Positions 4,078 to 56,021 of a stretch of 64,000 nucleotides of DNA are shown here, piece after piece (position 1 is the stretch's first letter; every line of letters starts with the position of its first letter). The notes under the pieces were generated by a model. It saw only the letters and a program-made list of their open reading frames with translations, made no database searches and was not told where the DNA came from. The stretch spans positions 196,382 through 260,381 of the forward strand of contig NZ_FNWJ01000002.1 of the NCBI RefSeq assembly GCF_900108055.1, written 5' to 3'. The translations under genes and the position numbers were made by a program. The stretch is from Thermoleophilum album. GTDB taxonomy: Bacteria; Actinomycetota; Thermoleophilia; Solirubrobacterales; Thermoleophilaceae.

Positions 4078-4827
4078 GTGGAGCCGCCGCGAGCCGATCG
4101 AGAGCGGGTTTGCGAACCCGCATGGGAGGAAGCACAGCCGTGCGCGCGGGCCAGCGATGCGCGCGTCCTTGGCCTCGGCGAGTTGGGGCGGCTGGAGGGC
4201 GATCAACTTCGCCGCTTGCTGGCCGGAGTGCTGGTGCTTGCAGCGCTCGTCGTCGCGTTCGTGTCATGGCAGCGGGGTGGCGAGAGGGCGCGGCGCGAAC
4301 GACCGGTGCTGTCCGTGCGCTCCAGCGCCGAGCGGGCGAGCGCGCGTTTCGCCTGGGTGCACGTGGTGGGCGCGGTTCGACGCCCGGGTGTCTACCGCCT
4401 GCCCGACCGGGCGCTAGTAGCCCGGGCAGTGGCGGCCGCCGGTGGTGCCGATCGCGCTGCCGATCTCACGGCCTTGAACCTCGCCGCACGGATCGAGGAC
4501 GGCCAGCAGGTGGTCGTGCCAAGGCGTGGCGCGCAGCCGGCGGGGGCGTCGGCGGGGGTTCCGACTTCGCCGGCCACGGCCGGTGGCGCCGGTGGTGCGG
4601 GGAGTAGCGCGCCCGGCGCGCGAGCCGCGGCGGCCGGCGGCAAGCTCAGCTTGCGGACCGCCACTCTCGAGCAGCTCGAACAACTCGATGGCATTGGGCC
4701 AACACTCGCCCGCCGGATCTTGGCTTACCGCGAGCGCCGCGGTTTTCGATCGCTCGACGAGCTCCGCGAGGTCGAGGGGATCGGCGAGAAGCGCTTCGAG
4801 GCGCTCCGTGAGCAGCTCGCGCCGTAA
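4078..4827 (+). CDS. comEA: Competence protein ComEA, membrane-anchored DNA receptor
   Basis: 249 residues from GTG 4078, chosen because TACGGT sits 7 bases upstream; GTG 4069 would add three residues. It binds incoming double-stranded DNA at the outer face of the membrane and passes it to ComEC. In order: a polar N-terminus, one transmembrane helix (about 46-63), an SLBB-type domain with VHVVGAVRRPGVYRLP (about 92-150), a Gly/Ala/Pro-rich linker, and a helix-hairpin-helix pair (LEQLDGIGPTLARRIL about 200-215 and LREVEGIGEKRFEAL about 230-244). comEC starts 3 bases after the stop. Confidence 0.92.
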   Translation: MEPPRADRERVCEPAWEEAQPCARASDARVLGLGELGRLEGDQLRRLLAGVLVLAALVVAFVSWQRGGERARRERPVLSVRSSAERASARFAWVHVVGAVRRPGVYRLPDRALVARAVAAAGGADRAADLTALNLAARIEDGQQVVVPRRGAQPAGASAGVPTSPATAGGAGGAGSSAPGARAAAAGGKLSLRTATLEQLEQLDGIGPTLARRILAYRERRGFRSLDELREVEGIGEKRFEALREQLAP

Positions 4828-4830
4828 GCG

Positions 4831-7200
4831 GTGCTGGGTCCCAGCCAGGTTTTCGTCGCTGCGCTTGCGGTCGGCCTTGCCGTGCCGGCGCTCGGCGTGG
4901 CGCGGCCGTCGCTGGTCGCAGCGGCTGCCCTCGTCGTTGCCGCCGCCGCGTTGGCCGGTCGCCCACAATCGGCGACGCTCCTGACGGTTGGCGGCGTGGC
5001 CCTGGCGCTCGGCGCGCTGGCCGGAGATTTCAGGCTCCGCGCACTGGCCGCTCCCGCTGCCGAGCTTCGGGGTCAGGCCGAGACGCGAGGGATCGACACG
5101 TGGAGCGGCGTACTCGAACTTCAGGAGCGACCCCGCCGAGTTCGCTACGGGTGGCGGGCACGTGCCCGCCTGTCGTCGCCGCCGGGCGCCGGGGCGACGG
5201 TCATGGTGCGTGGAGACGGGCACCCGCCGCGCGCTCTCGATCTCGGTTCTCGGGCCTGTGTGCGGGGGCGCTTGCAGCAGGAGGATCGCCTGCCGGCCGG
5301 GCGGGGGCGTGCCGACGGGGCAGGGCCGGCGCGTTCGCCGCCCCGCCTCGCCGGCCTGCTGCGCCTCTCCCAGATCCGCTACTGCGGACACCGTCAGGGC
5401 GTCGCCGGCGCGATCGATGCGGCGCGGCGTCGTTCGTTGGCCGCCCTGCGGGGCGCCCTCGGCAGCGCCGACGGGGAGCTTGCGGCCGGCCTCGTGCTCG
5501 GTCTCGACGAGTGGATCGCGCCAAGCACGCGCGAAGACTTCCGGGCGAGCGGCCTTGGGCACCTGCTGGCCGTCTCGGGCCAGAACGTCGCTCTGTTGCT
5601 TGCGCTGGCGGGGCCGTTCGTTCGCGTCGCCGTGCGCTCCCTACGCCTGCGGTGGGCTCTCCTCGCCCTGCTGATAGTGCTGTACGTCCCGCTAGCCGGT
5701 GCCGGGGCGCCCCTCCAACGCGCGGCGGTGATGGGTCTCGCGGGCCTCGCGGCTAGTGCAGCCGCCCGCCCGCAGCAGCGCTGGCACGCGCTGGCGCTGG
5801 CGGCGGTGGCGACACTGCTGCTCGACCCGCGCCAGGTCCACGACGCGAGTTGGCAGCTTTCGTTCGCGGCCGTCGCCGGTCTCGCGGGCTTCGCCCGACC
5901 GCTCGAGCGAGCGCTCGCGCCGCCTCTGCGCGGGCGTCCCGAAGGGCCGCTGAGGCCACTGCTCGATGCCGCACAGCGCAGCTTCGCGGCCGCCGTGGCG
6001 ATGACCGTGGCGGCGTCGCTCGCCACTGCGCCGATCACGCTCGCGACGTTCGGAGCGCTACCAGCCGGCACGCTCGCCGCGAACCTCGTGGCGCTCCCGG
6101 CGGTGGCGCCTGCGATGTGGTTCGGGATGGTGCTGGCGGCCAGCGGTCAGCTGTCCGTGGTGCCGGGGTGCGGGAGCTTCCTAGTCGGACTCGCGGGGAA
6201 GCTCATCGGCCCGTGTTTGCAGCTCGCGCTGCGACATCTCGAGTGGTCGGCGGAGACCTTCGCCGTGCTCCCACAGATCGATCGCACGAGTGGCCTGAAG
6301 CTGCTCGCCCCAGCGTTGCTTGCAGGCGCACTGGTACTGCTCGCCCCGCTGCCGGGGGCGCGACCGGCGCGGCGCGTCCTCGCCGCAGCGATCGCCGCCT
6401 ACGCGCTGTGGGTGGTGGTCGAGCTGCGCGGCCCCGGCCCTCCCAGCGCGCCGACGATCACCTTCCTAGACGTTGGTCAGGGTGACGCAGTGCTCGTGCA
6501 GGATGGACGCGGTGCAAGCGTGCTGTTCGACAGCGGACCGCCCGAGGCCCGCGTCGTTCGGTTGTTGCGACGGGCCGGCGTGTCGCGACTCGATGTGGTG
6601 GTCGCGACGCACCCCTCCCGCGACCACCACGGCGGTTTGCGCGCGGTCGTCGAACAGTTGCGGCCGCGACTGTTCGTCGACGGCGGCGACGGCACCCGCG
6701 ACCCGGTGTTCCGCGCTGCCCGTTCGCTCGCCGTGGCGCACGGTGCCCGGCTGATCCCGGGTCTCGCGCCGCTGCGTCTTTCCGTGGGCCGGATCTCGGT
6801 GCAGGTGCTCTCGCCGCGCCCGCGGCCGCCCGGTCCGCCCCCCGCGGATCCCAACCCCCGGGCAATCGTGGCGCTCGTGGAGGTCGCCGGCGTGCGCTTC
6901 CTGACCTCCGGCGACGCCGAAAGTGGCGCGCTGAGTCCCTTGCGACTGCCCGCCGTCGAAATCATCAAGGTGCCCCACCACGGAAGCGCTGACCCCGGCC
7001 TCCCGGCAGTCTTGCGACGCCTGCGGCCGGCGATCGCCGTGATCGAAGTAGGCGCCGGTAACCCCTTCGGTCACCCCAGCCCATCGACGCTCGCCGCGCT
7101 CGCGCGTCACGGCGCGCGGGTCTGGCGGACCGACCGTGACGGCACCGTCACGATCTCGCTGCGTCGCCGGCGCCTGATTGTCGAGACGGCCGGTGGTTAG
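4831..7200 (+). CDS. comEC: Competence protein ComEC/Rec2, DNA uptake channel
   Basis: 789 residues from GTG 4831. Forms the inner-membrane channel that takes up single-stranded DNA. Layout: N-terminal membrane helices and a DUF4131-type soluble part to about residue 200; the polytopic Competence domain (LLAVSGQNVALLLAL, then many helices) to about 520; a metallo-beta-lactamase-like domain from DVGQGDAVLV (about 547). The metal motif is THPSRDHHGG (593-602), so the second His of HxHxDH is Ser; ComEC proteins commonly replace that His with Asp. VPHHGSAD (714-721) supplies further ligands. It is translationally close to comEA (3-base gap), as in the classic late-competence operon. Confidence 0.93.
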   Translation: MLGPSQVFVAALAVGLAVPALGVARPSLVAAAALVVAAAALAGRPQSATLLTVGGVALALGALAGDFRLRALAAPAAELRGQAETRGIDTWSGVLELQERPRRVRYGWRARARLSSPPGAGATVMVRGDGHPPRALDLGSRACVRGRLQQEDRLPAGRGRADGAGPARSPPRLAGLLRLSQIRYCGHRQGVAGAIDAARRRSLAALRGALGSADGELAAGLVLGLDEWIAPSTREDFRASGLGHLLAVSGQNVALLLALAGPFVRVAVRSLRLRWALLALLIVLYVPLAGAGAPLQRAAVMGLAGLAASAAARPQQRWHALALAAVATLLLDPRQVHDASWQLSFAAVAGLAGFARPLERALAPPLRGRPEGPLRPLLDAAQRSFAAAVAMTVAASLATAPITLATFGALPAGTLAANLVALPAVAPAMWFGMVLAASGQLSVVPGCGSFLVGLAGKLIGPCLQLALRHLEWSAETFAVLPQIDRTSGLKLLAPALLAGALVLLAPLPGARPARRVLAAAIAAYALWVVVELRGPGPPSAPTITFLDVGQGDAVLVQDGRGASVLFDSGPPEARVVRLLRRAGVSRLDVVVATHPSRDHHGGLRAVVEQLRPRLFVDGGDGTRDPVFRAARSLAVAHGARLIPGLAPLRLSVGRISVQVLSPRPRPPGPPPADPNPRAIVALVEVAGVRFLTSGDAESGALSPLRLPAVEIIKVPHHGSADPGLPAVLRRLRPAIAVIEVGAGNPFGHPSPSTLAALARHGARVWRTDRDGTVTISLRRRRLIVETAGG

Positions 7201-47017: not shown

Positions 47018-49036
47018 GTGCCCGCGTTCCGCGTCAATCCCGCATACCAACCGGTTGCCGACCAGGCGCGCGCACGTGACCAGCTGGCGGAGGGGATCGA
47101 GGCCGGCGAGCGTTTCCAAACGCTGCTCGGCGTTACGGGCTCGGGGAAGACCGCCACGATGGCCTTCACGATCGAGCGGGTGCAGCGACCGACGCTCGTG
47201 ATCGCGCACAACAAGACCCTCGCGGCCCAGCTTTGCAACGAGTTCCGCGAGTTCTTCCCGGACAACGCGGTCGAGTACTTCGTCTCCTACTACGACTACT
47301 ACCAGCCGGAGGCGTACGTCCCGCACCAGGACCTCTACATCGAGAAGGACGCGTCGATCAACGAGGAGATCGACCGCCTTCGGCACTCGGCGACCGCGGC
47401 ATTGTTGGCTCGACGCGACGTGATCATCGTCGCCTCGGTTTCTTGCATCTACGGCCTCGGCTCACCCGATCGCTACCGGGAGCAGAACCTGGTGCTGGCG
47501 CGCGGACAGTTCGTCGATCGCGACGAGGTTCTACGACAGCTGGTTGCGATGCAGTACTCACGCAACGACCAAGCGCTCGCGCGCGGACGGTTCCGGGTCC
47601 GTGGCGACACGCTCGAGATCTTCCCGGCGTACGCCGAACGCAGCGCCTACCGGATCCTGTTCTTTGGAGACGAGATCGAGCAGATCCTGCAGGTCGATCC
47701 GCTGACCGGGGAGGTGCTGGGTGAGCCGGAGCATGTGGGGATCTGGCCGGCCACGCACTACGTAACCGACCCGCCGACGATCGAGCGCGCGATCGAGGAG
47801 ATCCGCGCGGAACTCGAGCAGCGTTGCCGCGAGCTAGAGGAGCAGGGGAAGCTGCTCGAAGCCCACCGCCTGCGCCAGCGCACCGAGTTCGATATCGAGA
47901 TGCTCCGCGAGGTTGGCTACTGCAACGGGATCGAGAACTACTCGCGGATCCTCGACGGGCGGCCGCCGGGTGCGCGCCCGTACTGCCTGATCGACTACTT
48001 CCCCGACGACTTCATCTGCTTCATCGACGAGTCGCACCAGACCGTGCCGCAGATCGGCGGCATGTACGAGGGCGACCGCTCGCGCAAGCAGACGCTCGTC
48101 GACTACGGCTTCCGCCTGCCGTCGGCTCTCGACAACCGCCCGCAAACGTTTGAAGAGTTCCTGGCGATCGTGCCACAGATCGTCTTCGTCTCGGCCACCC
48201 CTGGGGAGTTCGAGCGGCGGGTGTCGACGCGCATCGTCGAGCAGATCGTTCGGCCCACCGGCATCGTCGACCCGGAGGTCGAGGTGCGCCCGACGGAGAA
48301 CCAGATCGACGACCTGATGAACGAGATCCGCCGGCGCGTCGACGCTGGCGAGCGCACGCTCGTCACGACCTTGACCAAGCGGATGGCCGAGGACCTCACC
48401 GAGTACCTGCTGGACCACGGCTTGCGCGTGCGCTACCTGCATTCGGAGATCGACACGCTCGAGCGCATCCAGATCATCCGCGAGCTGCGGCTTGGCGAGT
48501 TCGACGTGCTGGTCGGAGTGAACCTGCTGCGGGAGGGTCTCGACCTGCCGGAGGTCTCGCTCGTCGCGATCCTCGACGCCGACAAGGAGGGCTTCCTGCG
48601 CGGCGAGACGGCGCTGATCCAGACGATCGGTCGGGCTGCGCGCAACGTCCATGGCAAGGTGATCATGTACGCCGATCGCGAGACCGAAGCGATGCGGCGG
48701 GCGATCGCCGAGACCAACCGCCGCCGGCGGATCCAGATCGCCTACAACGAGCGTCACGGCATAACGCCCGAAACGATCCGCAAGGGCATCTCCGACATCA
48801 CCGACTTCTTGGCGCTCGAGCAGACCCCGCGCAGTCGGGGACGGCGCGGGCACGGGGAGCGCATGCGTGCCACCAGAAAGCGCTCGCCCGAGGAGCTCCG
48901 GCGCCTAATCGTTGAGCTTGAGGAAGAGATGTTCGCGGCCGCCGAAGACCTCCGCTTTGAGCAGGCGGCACGGCTGCGCGACGAGATCAAGGAGCTGCGG
49001 CGCGAGCTTGACGCACTCGAGCACGCTCCCACCTAG
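47018..49036 (+). CDS. uvrB: UvrABC system protein B
   Basis: 672 residues. Damage-verifying helicase-like subunit of nucleotide excision repair. Walker [10 protein letters not shown] (38-46), the beta-hairpin [10 protein letters not shown] that inserts into [24 protein letters not shown], helicase motifs through QTIGRAARN, and a C-terminal UVR motif ([20 protein letters not shown]) that contacts UvrC. uvrA is only 1.7 kb downstream on the same strand, separated by the copper-protein gene. Confidence 0.97.
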
Positions 49037-49067: not shown

Positions 49068-49081
49068 TGACCAATCGGTCA
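49068..49081. promoter_or_regulatory. Palindromic operator-like site upstream of the copper protein
   Basis: TGACC-AATC-GGTCA, perfect 5-bp arms. It ends one base into the -10 box at 49080-49085, and a further TTGACC lies directly downstream (49085-49090). Position and size suit a dimeric repressor, for example of the TetR family; the regulator is unknown and not encoded here. Confidence 0.6.
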
Positions 49082-49091: not shown

Positions 49092-50669
49092 ATGCTCTGC
49101 GAGTCCCCCACGAACCCCACGCTGCCTGCACGTCTTCGGGATCGACTGCGAGTCGCCGGTGCGCTAGCGGTCTCGACGCTCGCGCTGGCCCTTGCGCCGG
49201 CGACGGCCGCGGCCGCCGGTGACGTTCAGCACCTGAGCTACCGGATCGGCCCGTTTCACATCACACCAGGCCAGAACCGCATTGCCTTTGCCCCGATCGC
49301 ACCCTCGCAGCGCCCCGCGGTTCCGGGGTACATCACGCGCATCAAGCCGAACCTGACGTACCTGAACGGAAAGATTCCTCGCGTCGACATCGTCCATCTG
49401 CACCACGCGGTCTGGCTCAACCTTTCGCGTAAGGACGCCACGATGGGGGGCCCGGAGCGGTTCTTCGCGGCCGGTGAGGAGAAAACGATCTTCCGAGTGC
49501 CGCCGGGATACGGCTACTACTACGACCCCAAAGACCGGTGGGTTCTCAACCACATGCTCCACGACCTGGTCGGTAAGCCGGCCGAGGTCTACGTCACCTA
49601 CGACATCGACTTCGTTCCCGCCGACTCGCCCACCGGCCGCCGCATGAAAGCGGTGCGCCCGATCTGGATGGATGTTCAGAACGGCAGCCTCTACCCGGTG
49701 TTCGACGTGCTCAAGGGCTCCGGCGAGGGCGGTCGCTTTACCTTCCCCGATCAGGCTCGCAACCCCTACCGCGGGGGGCCGCGCAACGTGTGGCGAGTGG
49801 ATCGCGACGGAGTGCTCGTGGCCGGCGCGGGGCACGTGCACCCCGGTGGTCTCTACACGGATCTCTGGCTCAATCGTCCCGGCGCGACGCCGGCGCGTGC
49901 CCGCTGCGCGGCGACTGCGGGCGCCGCCCGCCGCCGTTGTCTCGCGAAGGCGCCAACGGTGCGCGGGCAGTGGGTGCACCTGCTGCGTTCGAAGGCCAAG
50001 TACTTCGGCAAGAAGGGGCCGATCGACTGGGACCTGGCGATGACCGGCAGCCGCCCGGACTGGCAGGTGCAGGTCCGCAAGGGCGACCTGCTGCGCATCA
50101 CCGCTACCTACGACTCGAGCCGGGCCGCTTGGTACGAGTCGATGGGGATCATGGTCCTGTACATGGCCGATGGGTCGGGCGGGAAGGACCCGCTACGCAC
50201 CAAGGTCGACTACATCGGCACGACCACCCACGGCCGCCTGCCGGAGAACATCGATCGCGGCGGTCGCCCGACGAACCTGCCCAACCCGCTGGCGCTGCCA
50301 GCGGGGGGACCGGCGCCGAGCGTGATCGGCATCTCCGACTTCCGCTACCAGGTCGGTGACTTCCTGTTGCCTGGCGCCGGCAAGCGACCGCCGGTCGTGC
50401 GTCGTGGGCAGCAGGTCCTGTTCGTAAATGGCGACGACGGCCGCGAGATCTACCACTCGGTGACATCCTGCCGCGAGCCCTGCAACCGCTCCTCGGGGAT
50501 CGGCTACCCGCTGGCCGACGGCCGTTTCGACTCCGGCCAGCTTGGCAGTCGCCTGCCGGGGGTCGGAAGGGTCGAATGGCAGCTCCCGACTTCCCGCCTC
50601 AAACCGGGGACGTACACCTACTTCTGTCGCATCCATCCCTTCATGCGCGGGTCGTTCAGGGTCCAGTAG
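49092..50669 (+). CDS. Secreted copper protein: PHM/DBH-like two-domain part plus C-terminal cupredoxin
   Basis: 525 residues with a signal peptide (about 1-42, ending TAAAAG). Residues 45-370 carry, in order, HLHHAVW (His104/His105), NHMLHDL (His154/His157), GHVHPGG (His248/His250) and [11 protein letters not shown] (Met351). This His-His, His, His-x-His, Met order copies the CuH and CuM sites of peptidylglycine and dopamine monooxygenases, though I cannot confirm the fold. Residues 410-525 are a cupredoxin with ligands His455, Cys512, His515 and Met518 ([11 protein letters not shown]). Together this would place up to three copper ions in one secreted chain. It lies between uvrB and uvrA with its own promoter and operator-like site. 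Substrate unknown; the N-terminal part could instead be a copper-storage or electron-transfer domain. Confidence 0.65.
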
Positions 50670-50690
50670 AGCGGACGCTGAACGGGTGAG

Positions 50691-50726
50691 ACGGCCGGGC
50701 GCGCGGCGCGACCGCCGCCCGGTCGT
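50691..50726 (+). terminator. Long GC hairpin between the copper gene and uvrA
   Basis: An 11-bp stem (50691-50701 with 50716-50726, one G-T pair) around a 14-base loop that can pair within itself. It lies 21 bases after the copper-protein stop and just ahead of the uvrA promoter. A short TTC follows instead of a U-run. Confidence 0.6.
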
Positions 50727-50744
50727 TCTGCATCTAGCGGTCCG

Positions 50745-50750
50745 TACACT
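50745..50750 (+). promoter_or_regulatory. -10 box TACACT, leaderless type
   Basis: TACACT ends 9 bases before ATG 50760, the uvrA start. I see no LexA-type box nearby. Confidence 0.55.
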
Positions 50751-50759
50751 CGCCTGCGA

Positions 50760-53639
50760 ATGGCAAGCGGCGAGATCGTCATCACCGGGGCGCGCCAGCA
50801 CAACCTCAAGAACATTTCGCTGCGCCTTCCCCGCGATGCCCTGATCGTGATCACTGGCTTGTCCGGATCGGGCAAGTCGAGCCTCGCCTTCGACACGATC
50901 TACGCCGAGGGGCAGCGCCGTTACGTCGAGTCGCTGTCGGCCTACGCCCGCCAGTTCCTGGGCCAGATGGACAAGCCCGACGTCGACTCCATCGAGGGGC
51001 TCTCGCCGGCGATCTCGATCGACCAGAAGACGACTTCCCGCAACCCCCGCTCGACGGTCGGCACGATCACCGAGATCCACGATTACCTGCGCCTCCTGTG
51101 GGCGCGGATCGGCGTCCCTCACTGCCATCGCTGCGGCAAGCGCATCGAGGCGCAGGCGCCCGACCAGATCGTCGATCGGGTGCTCGCCCGACCCGAAGGG
51201 AGCCGCGTGATGGTGATGGCGCCGGTGGTGCGGGGACGCAAGGGCGAACATCGCGAACTGCTCGAGCGTCTGCGTTCGGAGGGCTTCGCGCGGATCAAGG
51301 TCGATGGGCAGGTGCGTCGCCTCGACGAGCCGATCGAGCTGGACAAAAAGCGAGCGCATTCGCTGTCGGTCGTCGTCGACCGGTTGATCGTGCGTCCGGA
51401 GATCAGACGGCGGCTCGCTGACTCGATCGAGACGGCCGTCGCCCTCGCCGACGGTCTGGTCGAAATCGAAGACGTCGAACGCGGCGAGGTGGAGCTCTAC
51501 TCCGACCGCTTCATGTGCGTCGACTGCGGCATCTCGTTGCCGGAGCTCGAGCCCCGCATGTTCTCCTTCAACTCGCCGTACGGCGCTTGTCCGCACTGCA
51601 CCGGCCTCGGGCATCAGCGCGAGATCGATCCGGAGCTGGTGATTCCCAACCCCGAGCTCTCGCTCTCGGAAGGCGCGATCGCTCCCTGGAGCGCGAACGG
51701 CGTGGGCTTCTACGACCGCTTACTCGACGCCTTCTGTGAGCAGGAGGGGATCGATCCGACGGTGCCGTGGCGCAAGCTGCCGGCCGCCGTGCGCCGAGCG
51801 ATCCTCTACGGAAGCGACGAGCGGGTGGAGTTCACCTACCGCAGTCGCCGTGGCCGTTGGCGGCGGCGAAGCACCTGGTTCGAGGGCGTCATCCCGAACC
51901 TCGAACGCCGCTACCGCGAGACCGATTCGGAGGTCGTGCGGGAGCGCATCGAGAGCTACATGACGCTGCGACCGTGTCCGCAGTGCGGCGGTGCGCGACT
52001 GCGGCCCGAGGCGCTTGCGGTGAAGGTCGGGGGTCTCGGCATCCACGAGCTGAGCGCGCGCTCCGCACGCGACGCCCTCGAGTGGCTGCGCAGACTTCAG
52101 CTCAGCGAGACCGAGCAGCGCATCGCCGCGCGCGTGCTGCGGGAGATCGAGGAGCGGCTGGGTTTCCTCGACGCCGTGGGCATCGGCTACCTCTCGCTCG
52201 ACCGCCCGGCAAGCACGCTCTCCGGCGGCGAGGCGCAGCGCATACGCCTAGCTACCCAGATCGGATCGAGTCTCGTGGGCGTGCTCTACATCCTCGACGA
52301 GCCGTCGATCGGCCTCCACCAGCGGGACAACGCGCGGCTGGTCGCGACGCTCGAGCGCTTGCGCGATCTCGGCAACACGGTGATCGTCGTCGAGCACGAC
52401 GAAGGCACGATGCGCGCAGCCGACCACATCGTCGACCTCGGGCCGGGGGCGGGAGAGCACGGTGGGCGGGTCGTTGCGCAGGGCCCTCCCGAGGCGATCA
52501 TGGCCAACGAAGAGTCGCTGACCGGCGGCTACCTATCGGGCAGGCTGCAGATTCCGGTGCCAGCCCGGCGGCGAAAGCCGCGTGGTTGGCTGCACGTCGA
52601 GGGTGCCAGCCAGCACAACCTCAAGGAGATCGACGTCGACTTCCCGCTCGGCGTTCTCTGCTGCGTAACGGGCGTGTCGGGATCCGGGAAGTCCACGCTT
52701 GTCAACGAGATCCTCTACAAGGCTGTCGCTGCGCGGCTGCATCGTCTTCGGGCTAGGCCTGGTGCTCACCGTCGGATCCGCGGACTAGAGCGCATCGACA
52801 AGGTGATCGCAATCGACCAGGCGCCGATCGGCCGCACGCCCCGCTCCAATCCGGCGACCTACATCGGTCTGTTCGACCACATCCGCGAGCTATTCGCGCG
52901 CACCCCCGAGGCCCGCGCGCGCGGCTACAAGCCGGGACGTTTCTCCTTCAACGTGCGTGGCGGCCGCTGTGAAACCTGCCGCGGCGACGGGCAGCTGAGA
53001 ATCGAGATGCACTTCCTGCCCGACGTCTACGTGGAGTGCGACCGTTGCCACGGGCGGCGCTACAACCGTGAGACGCTCGACATCCGCTACAAGGGTCGGA
53101 CGATCGCCGACGTCTTGGAGATGACTGTTGCCGAGGCGCTCGAGTTCTTCCACCCGATCCCGAAGATCCGGCGCCGCTTGCAGACACTGCACGACGTAGG
53201 GCTCGGCTACGTGCGCCTCGGGCAGCCCGCGACGACGCTCTCCGGCGGTGAGGCGCAGCGCGTGAAGTTGGCATCCGAGCTCTGCAAAGTCGCCACCGGC
53301 GACACCCTCTACATCCTCGACGAGCCGACCACCGGCCTGCACTTCGCTGACGTCGAACGGCTGCTCGCGGTCCTCAACCGGCTGGTCGACCAGGGCAACA
53401 CGGTGGTGGTGATCGAACACAACCTCGACGTCGTGAAGGCCGCCGACTGGCTCATCGATCTCGGGCCGGAGGGTGGCGAAGAGGGCGGCGAGCTGGTCGC
53501 GACCGGTCCTCCCGAGCAGGTCGCGATGGTGGACGCGTCGCACACCGGGCGCTTCCTGCGGCCCTTGCTTACCGCTACTCGCTCACCGCAGCCGCAGTCG
53601 GAATTTGCGCAACGCCGTGCGGCCGGAGCGGTCGCCTAG
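50760..53639 (+). CDS. uvrA: UvrABC system protein A
   Basis: 959 residues. Damage-sensing ABC ATPase of nucleotide excision repair. First Walker A GLSGSGKS (33-40), zinc modules CHRCG and CVDCG...CPHCTGLG, signature [18 protein letters not shown], second Walker A GVSGSGKS, zinc module CETCRGDGQ...[10 protein letters not shown], second signature [18 protein letters not shown]. Complete. The last 57 bases overlap the convergent subtilase gene. Confidence 0.98.
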
Positions 53640-56021
53640 CCGCACTTCGAGTGCGTAAGTTCCGCGCCGCAGCCGGTGCTTGGCATGCAAGGTGACGTAA
53701 CGCCCGAGACGACCGTTCGCGGTGGCGAGAGTGCGCCGAGCCTTGCGCAGCACGAAGCGAAGCGTGAGCGGTCGGGAGGCGCTTGCGCTCAAGACCAGTT
53801 TGCAGCGCAGCGCGCGTGCGCTCCAGCGCGGACAGCGGATGCGCGCGCTCCGCGCCAGCGCGGCCAGCTGAGCGCTGCTCGATGTTGGGCCGGACTGGAT
53901 ACTTTGTGTCCCCCCGCCGGTGGAACCCGCGGGCCCCGGAGAGGGTGGCCGCGCCGGACCGTTGTCTTGCGGAGCGATCGGTGTGGCGACGAGGTCGAGC
54001 AGGCGTCGCAAGTCGAGACGGCCACCCGAGACCGTCCGCCCGGCGAGTGCTTGCACGGGGTCTGCGCTGCGCAGCAATAGCTCGCGCAGCTGCGCAGGAG
54101 TGAGGTCCGGTCGACGGGCCAGCACCAGTGCCGCTGCTCCAGCTACGTGCGGGGCGGCCATCGACGTGCCGCTCGAGAACTGCCAGCTGCCGCTGCCGGA
54201 TGCCGTGTTGACGCAGAGCACCCGGACGTCATCGACGATCACCCGTCCGCCCTGCGTTCCGTGGTCGTACAGAACGCCGAAACCGATGATCGCGTCCGGC
54301 CGCCCGTCGAACGCCGGCGTCGGGAGCATCATCTGCCATGGGTCGACAACCGCTTGGCGGAGCGCGCCAGCAGTGTCGCCGCTTTTCGTGTCGACGATCT
54401 GGACTCCGCCAGCGCCAGTGAGCGAACCGAGCTTGACGTAGAGCGAGACCGCGGGGCTGCCACCGCTAGCGGCCTGAGGATCGTCGATCAGATAGCGGAA
54501 GCGCAGGCGGCAGCCGTGCTGGGCGCTCAGGTCGAGCGGGGTGCGGACGACGACCTCGGAGTTGCCGTACTGCGTGGCTGCCGAGGGTGCGATCGTGACG
54601 CCAGCAGCGGCAAGCCCAGTGCCGGCGACGCCGCTCACGAGCCCCCGCTCCGGTAGCGCTCCGCTGGTGCTCGTGACCCAGTCGACGCTCAGCGGGGTGC
54701 CGTCGTCGAACGACCAGGTGCGCACCACGAGGTTGCGATCTGGCCAGGTCGAGATGATCGCGTTGCCGGGCGCGCCGAGATCGACGCTTGCCGCCCCGAA
54801 GTTCGACCACGTGGGGACGCCGTCGTTTTGGTCGGTGGCGGCGACGCACACCAGGTTCGGGCTGTCTAAGGCGCACGGGTAGCTGCGTTGCGGGGAGCTG
54901 TCGTTGTCGATGCCGTCGTTGCCGGCCGCGGTCACGAACAGCACGTCAGGGTGCCGGTCGATCGCCTCCTTGAGGGCCGGCGAGTAGCCGGGGCCACCGA
55001 GCGAGACGTTGACGACGCGGGCTCCCATGCGGGCCGCGTAGTCGAAGGCGGCGATCAACGCGGAATCCGTAGCGCCAGCGATGCCAACCACGCGCAGGGG
55101 CATCAAAGGGCCGCGCCAGGCGACGCCGGCAACGCCGGTGCCGTCGTTGGCGCGCGCGGCAATCGTGCCCGCGACGTGCGTGCCGTGCCCGTCGTAGTCA
55201 CTGGGATCGGGATCGCCACCAGCGAAGTCCCAGCCGTGCACGTCGTCGACGAAGCCGTTGCCGTCGTCGTCGACCCCTGGTCGGCCTCGTGCCTCCGCGT
55301 CATTGGTCCAGAGCTCAGGCGCGAGGTCGGGATGCCCGAGCGCGACGCCCGTGTCGACCACCGCTACCGGCGCTGCGAAAGTGTTGGCAATCTCCCACCC
55401 AGCATCGGCATCGATGTCCGCTCCCGCCGTCCCCGGGGGATAGGCAGAGTCGAACTGCTGGCCCGTGTTGACGAGCGCCCACTGCTTCGGGAAGAGCGGA
55501 TCGGACGGCGTGGCGAGAGGGACGCGCCGGTAGTCCGGCTGGGCGTAGGCGATGGCACGGGAGCTGCGAAGGATCGCGAGGAGGCGCTCGAGCTTCGCTC
55601 CCCGCGCCGGGCGTACGACGACAGCACCGGGCAGCGGCAGTCGCTCGCTGACCCGCGCTCCCGCGGCCTTCAGCAGCTCACTGCGCCGCCGTCGGTCGAC
55701 CCCGCCACGGAAGCGCACGATCAGCGCCGTTGCCGCCCTCGGTGGCGGGCGGCGCCGGAGGCGCCGCTCGAGGTTGCTCAGGGCGCGTTTGGTGGCGCCA
55801 AGCGGCGGGCGCTGAGCGGCCGAGGGGCCGTTGCGCGGGCGTGGCAACTTCCCCGGCCGGGGGTCGAGCTTCGCAGCCGCTATCGGCGCTTGGCGGGTCG
55901 GCGCAGTACGTGAGTGCTCGGAGTCGCCGCCCGTTGCAGCCGCTGTGCCGAGCGCCAGCGCGACCGCGAGCGCGCCCAAACACCCTGCCCGAAACCCGCC
56001 GAATCGTCGTCGCTTGCTCAA
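53583..56021 (-). CDS. Secreted subtilisin-like serine protease (S8) with a large insertion
   Basis: 812 residues from TTG 56021. Signal peptide (about 1-30), Pro/Arg-rich spacer, an I9-like propeptide (about 97-165, [10 protein letters not shown] to [10 protein letters not shown]), and a catalytic domain with D223 ([13 protein letters not shown]), H279 (DGHGTHVAG), N368 (AAGNDG) and S620 ([13 protein letters not shown]). About 185 residues (425-612) lie between the oxyanion Asn strand and the Ser loop, reading like a beta-sandwich. After a disordered linker comes a C-terminal beta-rich domain (about 715-812). Secreted proteolysis is clear; target unknown. The TTG start has no good -10 box or SD, so the true start could differ. 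Confidence 0.9.

Follow-up and report, generated by a model that had tools for sequence, protein, structure and literature searches.

A secreted protein of Thermoleophilum album joins a predicted PHM/DBH-like copper core to a C-terminal cupredoxin

Analyzing a 64,000-nucleotide stretch of the Thermoleophilum album genome (contig NZ_FNWJ01000002.1, positions 196,382 to 260,381 of the forward strand; hereafter the window), we found that an open reading frame (ORF) at 49092-50669 on the plus strand, starting with ATG, encodes a secreted protein of 525 amino acids whose predicted core fold resembles that of the copper hydroxylases PHM and DBH and whose C-terminus carries a cupredoxin domain. The gene is flanked by uvrB (47018-49036) and uvrA (50760-53639), both named by eye from the sequence, and the same flanks are found in close relatives. 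In Bacterium HR41, the nearest named relative, the PHM-like gene lies in an identical uvrB-uvrA setting and its product is 80% identical, while a genome of the same genus encodes a protein of 77% identity. Differences from a relative are concentrated at third codon positions (0.19, 0.16 and 0.41 per first, second and third position). Given the same-genus copy at 77% identity, the third-position differences and the uvrB/uvrA flanks in relatives, we concluded from these comparisons that the PHM-like gene is a real gene. Two long ORFs opposite to it (50193-51614 and 49164-49979, both minus strand) are typical high-GC mirror frames and were not counted as genes. The features of the gene and its product are given below, with conservation counted in an alignment of 105 distinct related sequences.

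49092..50669, plus strand: complete gene of the secreted PHM/DBH-like and cupredoxin protein, 525 aa (ORF, relatives, codon-position differences)
49092..49217, plus strand: probable Sec signal peptide, residues 1-42 (hydrophobic stretch followed by an AxA-type site, read by eye)
49218..49646, plus strand: predicted domain 1 (CuH-type), residues ~43-185 (AlphaFold2 model and PDB matches; boundaries approximate)
49401..49406, plus strand: H104-H105, putative CuH ligands (PHM H107-H108), 105/105; on the PHM HH in blind hhalign
49473..49484, plus strand: GEEK, residues 128-131, with E129, E130 and K131 each 105/105 (alignment)
49554..49556, plus strand: M155, at the place of PHM Q170 and two residues ahead of the CuH His, 105/105
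49560..49562, plus strand: H157, putative third CuH ligand (PHM H172), 105/105; one column off in blind hhalign
49650..50177, plus strand: predicted domain 2 (CuM-type), residues ~187-362 (AlphaFold2 model and PDB matches; boundaries approximate)
49833..49841, plus strand: H248-V-H250, putative CuM ligands (PHM H242, H244), 105/105; hhalign
49884..49970, plus strand: lineage-specific insert in domain 2, residues ~265-293 (comparison with relatives)
50142..50144, plus strand: M351, putative CuM ligand (PHM M314), 105/105; one column off in blind hhalign
50229..50231, plus strand: H380 in a conserved THGxLxEN motif, 104/105 (alignment)
50313..50666, plus strand: cupredoxin domain, residues 408-525 (profile match, domain model, structural matches)
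50454..50456, plus strand: H455, putative type-1 copper ligand, 104/105
50469..50483, plus strand: C460 and C464 (CxxxC), 103/105 and 104/105 (alignment)
50625..50645, plus strand: C512, H515 and M518 (CxxHxxM), putative type-1 copper ligands, 100/100 where covered

An initial annotation, made from the sequence, had read H104, H105, H154, H157, H248, H250, M351, H455, C512, H515 and M518 as copper ligands in the HH / H / HxH / Met order of PHM and DBH, followed by a cupredoxin. All of these residue numbers are correct, and the six core positions H104, H105, H157, H248, H250 and M351 are invariant and stand in the same order as in PHM. The third CuH His had been left between 154 and 157; the latter is the invariant one, position 154 being Tyr in 48 sequences, His in 42 and other residues in the remaining ones. 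In the cupredoxin, H455 is missing from a single sequence, and C512, H515 and M518 are absent only at gaps (contig ends). Of the 13 histidines of the protein, conservation of at least 95% is restricted to eight (H380, H455, H515 and the five core ligands), so the ligand pattern is not due to chance. Four features that are not ligands are as conserved as the ligands: M155, the GEEK stretch, the THGxLxEN motif around H380, and the CxxxC after H455, which is a candidate for a disulfide or an extra metal site.

To characterize the fold, the mature chain was modelled by AlphaFold2 with 30 relatives (mean pLDDT 82.7, pTM 0.83), giving high confidence for mature-chain residues 1-345 and low confidence for most of the remainder. 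A Foldseek search of the PDB returned exclusively PHM or DBH at ranks 1-21 (E 5e-8 to 1e-6), and VIA-align gave Z 17.3 to human DBH (4zel_A; 245 residues, 3.2 Å, 14% identity) and Z 16.9 to PHM (6ala_A; 234 residues, 3.3 Å), these structural matches covering model residues 1-320. The predicted model resembles the closed state of PHM/DBH, because the two best PDB entries are closed conformers (PMC4846438 and PMC6123673). The alignment to 6ala ends at residue 319 of the model and 324 of PHM, in both proteins exactly ten residues past the Met ligand (309 and 314), an agreement that is consistent with an in-register match of the model. A prediction of an unrelated fold, which would have spoken against the initial annotation, thus did not result. 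A structural look-alike of the PNGase F or viral jelly-roll kind, with incidental histidines, would account for the presence of PNGase F and double-jelly-roll capsids lower in the structural list. However, the Z score falls from 17 for PHM/DBH to 8.6 for PNGase F, the next fold, and the ligands are strictly conserved, making this explanation scarcely credible.

At the level of sequence, the HMM check that the initial annotation had proposed came out negative: the 525-residue protein matched neither Cu2_monooxygen (PF01082) nor Cu2_monoox_C (PF03712) of Pfam even at E 10, and one of 30 family members matched PF03712 at E 0.22. A PDB sequence search recovered the cupredoxin part only and never PHM. 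The rat PHM core sequence used in profile alignment agrees almost fully with PDB entry 1yjk. By hhalign, the family profile (A1) aligned to four cytochrome-fused PHM proteins with a probability of 17%, and with more members and rat PHM added the probability was 14% (local) and 49% (global). In the blind global alignment to the PHM-containing profile the two HxH motifs coincide, and the third His and the Met are off by no more than one column; in the local alignment to PHM alone the HH motifs coincide. Because these probabilities are weak alone, the predicted PHM assignment rests on fold plus ligands and not on sequence similarity. The columns equivalent to PHM R240, N316 and Y318, the residues that bind the peptide carboxylate and substrate, are mostly occupied by A, I and V in family members (placed by offset from the ligands). 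Peptide amidation was therefore rejected, these substrate residues being absent. Furthermore, the PHM core disulfide set is missing, since the mature core contains no Cys other than those at 272 and 283, both of which are weakly conserved (27%). That PHM and DBH are the best structural matches would also be expected of a true, ascorbate-using peptidylglycine or catecholamine hydroxylase acquired from animals, but the failure of both Pfam models, the replaced substrate residues, the missing disulfides and the wide and diverse occurrence of the family in Actinomycetota, which leaves no room for a recent animal import, render such an origin very improbable.

The closest Pfam relative is plant SURNod19 (stress up-regulated Nod 19, PF07712). 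The 525-residue protein did not reach the cut-off of this family, hints of it appear in 12 of 30 relatives, and a sister bacterial subfamily scores 36-58 bits against a cut-off of 25 bits. This subfamily also ends in a cupredoxin, over the Copper-bind cut-off, and is found by the A1 profile at E down to 1e-40. Reading the SURNod19 profile by scoring single substitutions in one sister member (L039), we found that changing HH, HxH and Met to Ala cost 4.3, 5.2, 5.3, 5.3 and 4.7 bits, whereas two control His changes had effectively no cost (-0.3 and +0.2 bits). Changing the His beside the Met (PHTRVMG) cost 3.3 bits, and H136A, at the third CuH-type His, cost 0.2 bits, this stretch probably lying outside the aligned segments. 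In a diverged SURNod19-like member (L040, 799-1809, plus strand) the MNH that contains the third CuH-type His is replaced by MNW, and the CuH-type site of this protein may be degenerate.

In plants, miR398b cleaves the mRNA of bean Nod19, a protein of 404 aa; the level of this transcript drops when copper is deficient and rises under copper excess (PMC3882225); standalone bacterial cores without cupredoxin, present in some Actinomycetota, are of similar length (316-367 residues). Soybean Nod19 is among the genes negatively regulated by miR398 (PMC7201782). The function of Arabidopsis NOD19, which is described as having a compact predicted fold, with a signal peptide and a hydrophobic helix at the C-terminus, was called elusive in 2023 (PMC10326430). 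According to PMC8430956, copper microRNAs such as miR398 degrade the mRNAs of abundant, dispensable copper proteins, and a PHM-type cuproenzyme would fit copper-sparing control of Nod19 of this kind. We tentatively propose, at somewhat less than an even chance, that SURNod19 is an unrecognised ancient branch of PHM/DBH dicopper proteins shared by plants and Actinomycetota, in which the bacterial form would be self-sufficient, with the cupredoxin replacing ascorbate and with lipid-type substrates, and plant Nod19 would be standalone. A standalone dicopper version in plants would explain the control by miR398.

The presence of a cupredoxin in the same secreted chain, as first annotated, was borne out. 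Modelled alone (118 C-terminal residues, 81 sequences), this part reached a pLDDT of 79.8 and matched cupredoxins with Z up to 9.8, among them amicyanin, plastocyanin and the cupredoxins of NirK. Its profile match to amicyanin had an E of 5e-6, and the full protein stayed below the Pfam Cupredoxin_1/Copper-bind cut-off (14.1 bits vs 27). A survey of the neighbourhoods of 78 loci, using codon-position scoring against antisense ORFs, revealed that in 11 of them (L062, L063, L064, L066, L067, L069, L070, L092, L106, L127 and L128) the PHM-like gene is directly preceded, on the same strand, by a gene for a small secreted cupredoxin, in agreement with Pfam hints. The gap is -4 to +6 bp in 9 of the 11, the two reading frames often overlapping or almost touching. 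Beyond this gene and lineage-bound acyl-CoA genes, no conserved neighbour was found in the 78 loci. A true Cu2_monooxygen core, from a different family of this bacterial class, carries an N-terminal cytochrome-c-like domain (L032-L035, also L137 and L138); in L032-L035 the cytochrome match is below the cut-off and the CxxCH motif is present. PHM cores, which the initial annotation described as mostly known from animals, are thus also present in related bacteria. PHM-type cores appear to have been joined to one-electron carriers at least twice independently here, and it is chiefly this that speaks for the cupredoxin as an electron donor. PHM and DBH depend on ascorbate to reload both coppers, and the fused cupredoxin would serve as the electron donor in its place. 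Elsewhere in the same genome a further secreted cupredoxin is encoded, with an LPATG-like sorting signal at its C-terminus (C1 ~204,000; L002, 1243-2151, minus strand), a possible electron partner.

Together, these results support the first interpretation in outline, the observation being real and well conserved. The reading that we favor, and hold to be rather probable, is that of a secreted dicopper enzyme of PHM/DBH fold, forming a separate branch with plant SURNod19 and carrying a type-1 cupredoxin fused C-terminally, which would act as an O2-dependent monooxygenase fed by its own cupredoxin. Copper binding, catalysis, the direction of electron flow and the substrate are here inferred by analogy with PHM/DBH. 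O2 and substrate would bind at the CuM-type site (H248, H250, M351), and the CuH-type site (H104, H105, H157) would give the second electron across the cleft. Cleft closing, product release and re-reduction would then proceed as in PHM/DBH, and the fused cupredoxin, itself fed by other small secreted copper proteins, would take over the role of ascorbate in re-reducing the coppers. The expected product is a small molecule or lipid in oxidised form, probably hydroxylated, and not an amidated peptide.

Several points weigh against this enzyme. The cupredoxin, and with it its placement relative to the core, is of low confidence in the full-length model (about 45-70 pLDDT); the likeness to PHM is very weak in sequence (no Pfam match; hhalign probability 14-49%); the genes on either side, uvrB and uvrA, serve DNA repair and are uninformative on function; and the ligands would be equally conserved if the protein stored, sensed or delivered copper. 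Such a copper-handling protein, with a PHM-like fold, the cupredoxin as a second site and no oxygen chemistry, would suit a secreted chain with up to three copper sites as well as the rise of plant Nod19 under copper excess and its cleavage by the copper-sparing miR398 (PMC3882225). We consider it improbable, however, as the Met-containing CuM and three-His CuH sites are exactly those of the hydroxylases, both PHM/DBH domains are kept in the predicted fold, and the targeting of abundant, dispensable copper proteins by miR398, as described in PMC8430956, is as compatible with an enzyme as with a store.

Upstream of the gene lies a candidate regulatory site:

49068..49081, no strand assigned: perfectly palindromic TGACCAATCGGTCA, 10 bp upstream of the start codon, candidate TetR-type operator, kept in G103 and HR41

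About 0.07 copies of such a palindrome are expected per window. The genome holds three sites within one mismatch of TGACCGATCGGTCA, located 10-23 bp before three genes, the PHM-like one and those for an enoyl-CoA hydratase and an acyl-CoA dehydrogenase; the latter two have their sites 11-23 bp upstream, and the hydratase one is near a TetR/EthR-type gene (L152). The site positions are 49068-49081 in the window, C1:964985 and C2:130185 in G000 and C1:1269858 in G103. The palindrome before the PHM-like gene is conserved in both same-genus relatives (G103, HR41); G103 also keeps the hydratase-gene site, at two mismatches. Comparison of the palindrome with the FadR consensus of Thermus, TTRNACYNRGTNYAA (PMC5597230), gave no match. 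The shared palindrome hints at a lipid-catabolism regulon. A narrower form of the favored reading, in which the protein is a secreted lipid or hydrocarbon oxidase under a fatty-acid-type TetR regulator, draws on these resemblances, on their conservation in relatives and on the acyl-CoA genes found near the PHM-like gene in some of them. It is nevertheless doubtful, given that there are only three sites at up to one mismatch, that the regulator is a prediction and that acyl-CoA genes are common in these genomes. The TetR/EthR-type gene (5094-5819 of L152) and the hydratase gene adjoin an ORF for a ribonucleotide-reductase small-chain-like (R2-type) protein (4091-5104, minus strand), possibly an R2-like oxidase.

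Relatives of the PHM-like protein occur in 62 of 299 genomes of the class, about a fifth, by protein search. A scan of species genomes gave 126 matching stretches, from which the 78 loci were kept, mostly from Solirubrobacterales, Thermoleophilaceae, Acidimicrobiia and other Actinomycetota. The layout had been presumed undescribed, and a literature search indeed found no description of a PHM-like and cupredoxin fusion, most subscription papers lying outside its coverage; as a family, by contrast, it is found in the class and other Actinomycetota at the frequency given above. Around the PHM-like gene no sigma-70 or terminator matches were found, the PADLOC defence families gave no match, and a search of viral contigs returned no relatives of the protein. 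Adjoining uvrA is a large ORF for a secreted subtilisin-like protease (53583-56021, minus strand, 812 aa), assigned by eye.

A natural version of PHM/DBH with a covalently attached type-1 copper donor would offer a system for studying electron delivery to two distant coppers, and possibly a self-sufficient biocatalyst. The fusion is of more interest than first stated, as it links the PHM/DBH fold to a plant family that has lacked an explanation and provides a testable hypothesis, that of a two-copper, O2-using enzyme, for this stress and nodulation family, whose function was still described as elusive in 2023 (PMC10326430).

Comparison with known systems places the protein closest to PHM/DBH (PF01082/PF03712), its top structural matches, with which it shares two predicted jelly-roll domains and HH...H followed by HxH...M in the same order. 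Unlike them, it has ~14% identity and no Pfam match, lacks the PHM substrate residues, carries M155 at the place of PHM Q170, and has a cupredoxin where PHM/DBH have a DOMON or PAL neighbour. To SURNod19 (PF07712) it is linked by the sister subfamily above the cut-off and by a Pfam profile that rewards HH, HxH and Met, whereas plant NOD19 is described as a SURNod19 domain with a signal peptide and a hydrophobic helix at the C-terminus and has no cupredoxin (PMC10326430). The cytochrome-fused Cu2_monooxygen proteins (L032-L035) likewise combine a PHM core with a one-electron carrier in the same class, but the carrier is different and attached at the opposite end, and their core does match the Pfam Cu2_monoox models. 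Finally, the C-terminal domain shares its fold and H...CxxHxxM ligands with amicyanin and plastocyanin and with the cupredoxins of NirK (6hbe) and N. maritimus (9cck); unlike these, it has an extra conserved CxxxC after the first His, and its partner is a PHM-like core and not a multicopper oxidase or nitrite reductase.
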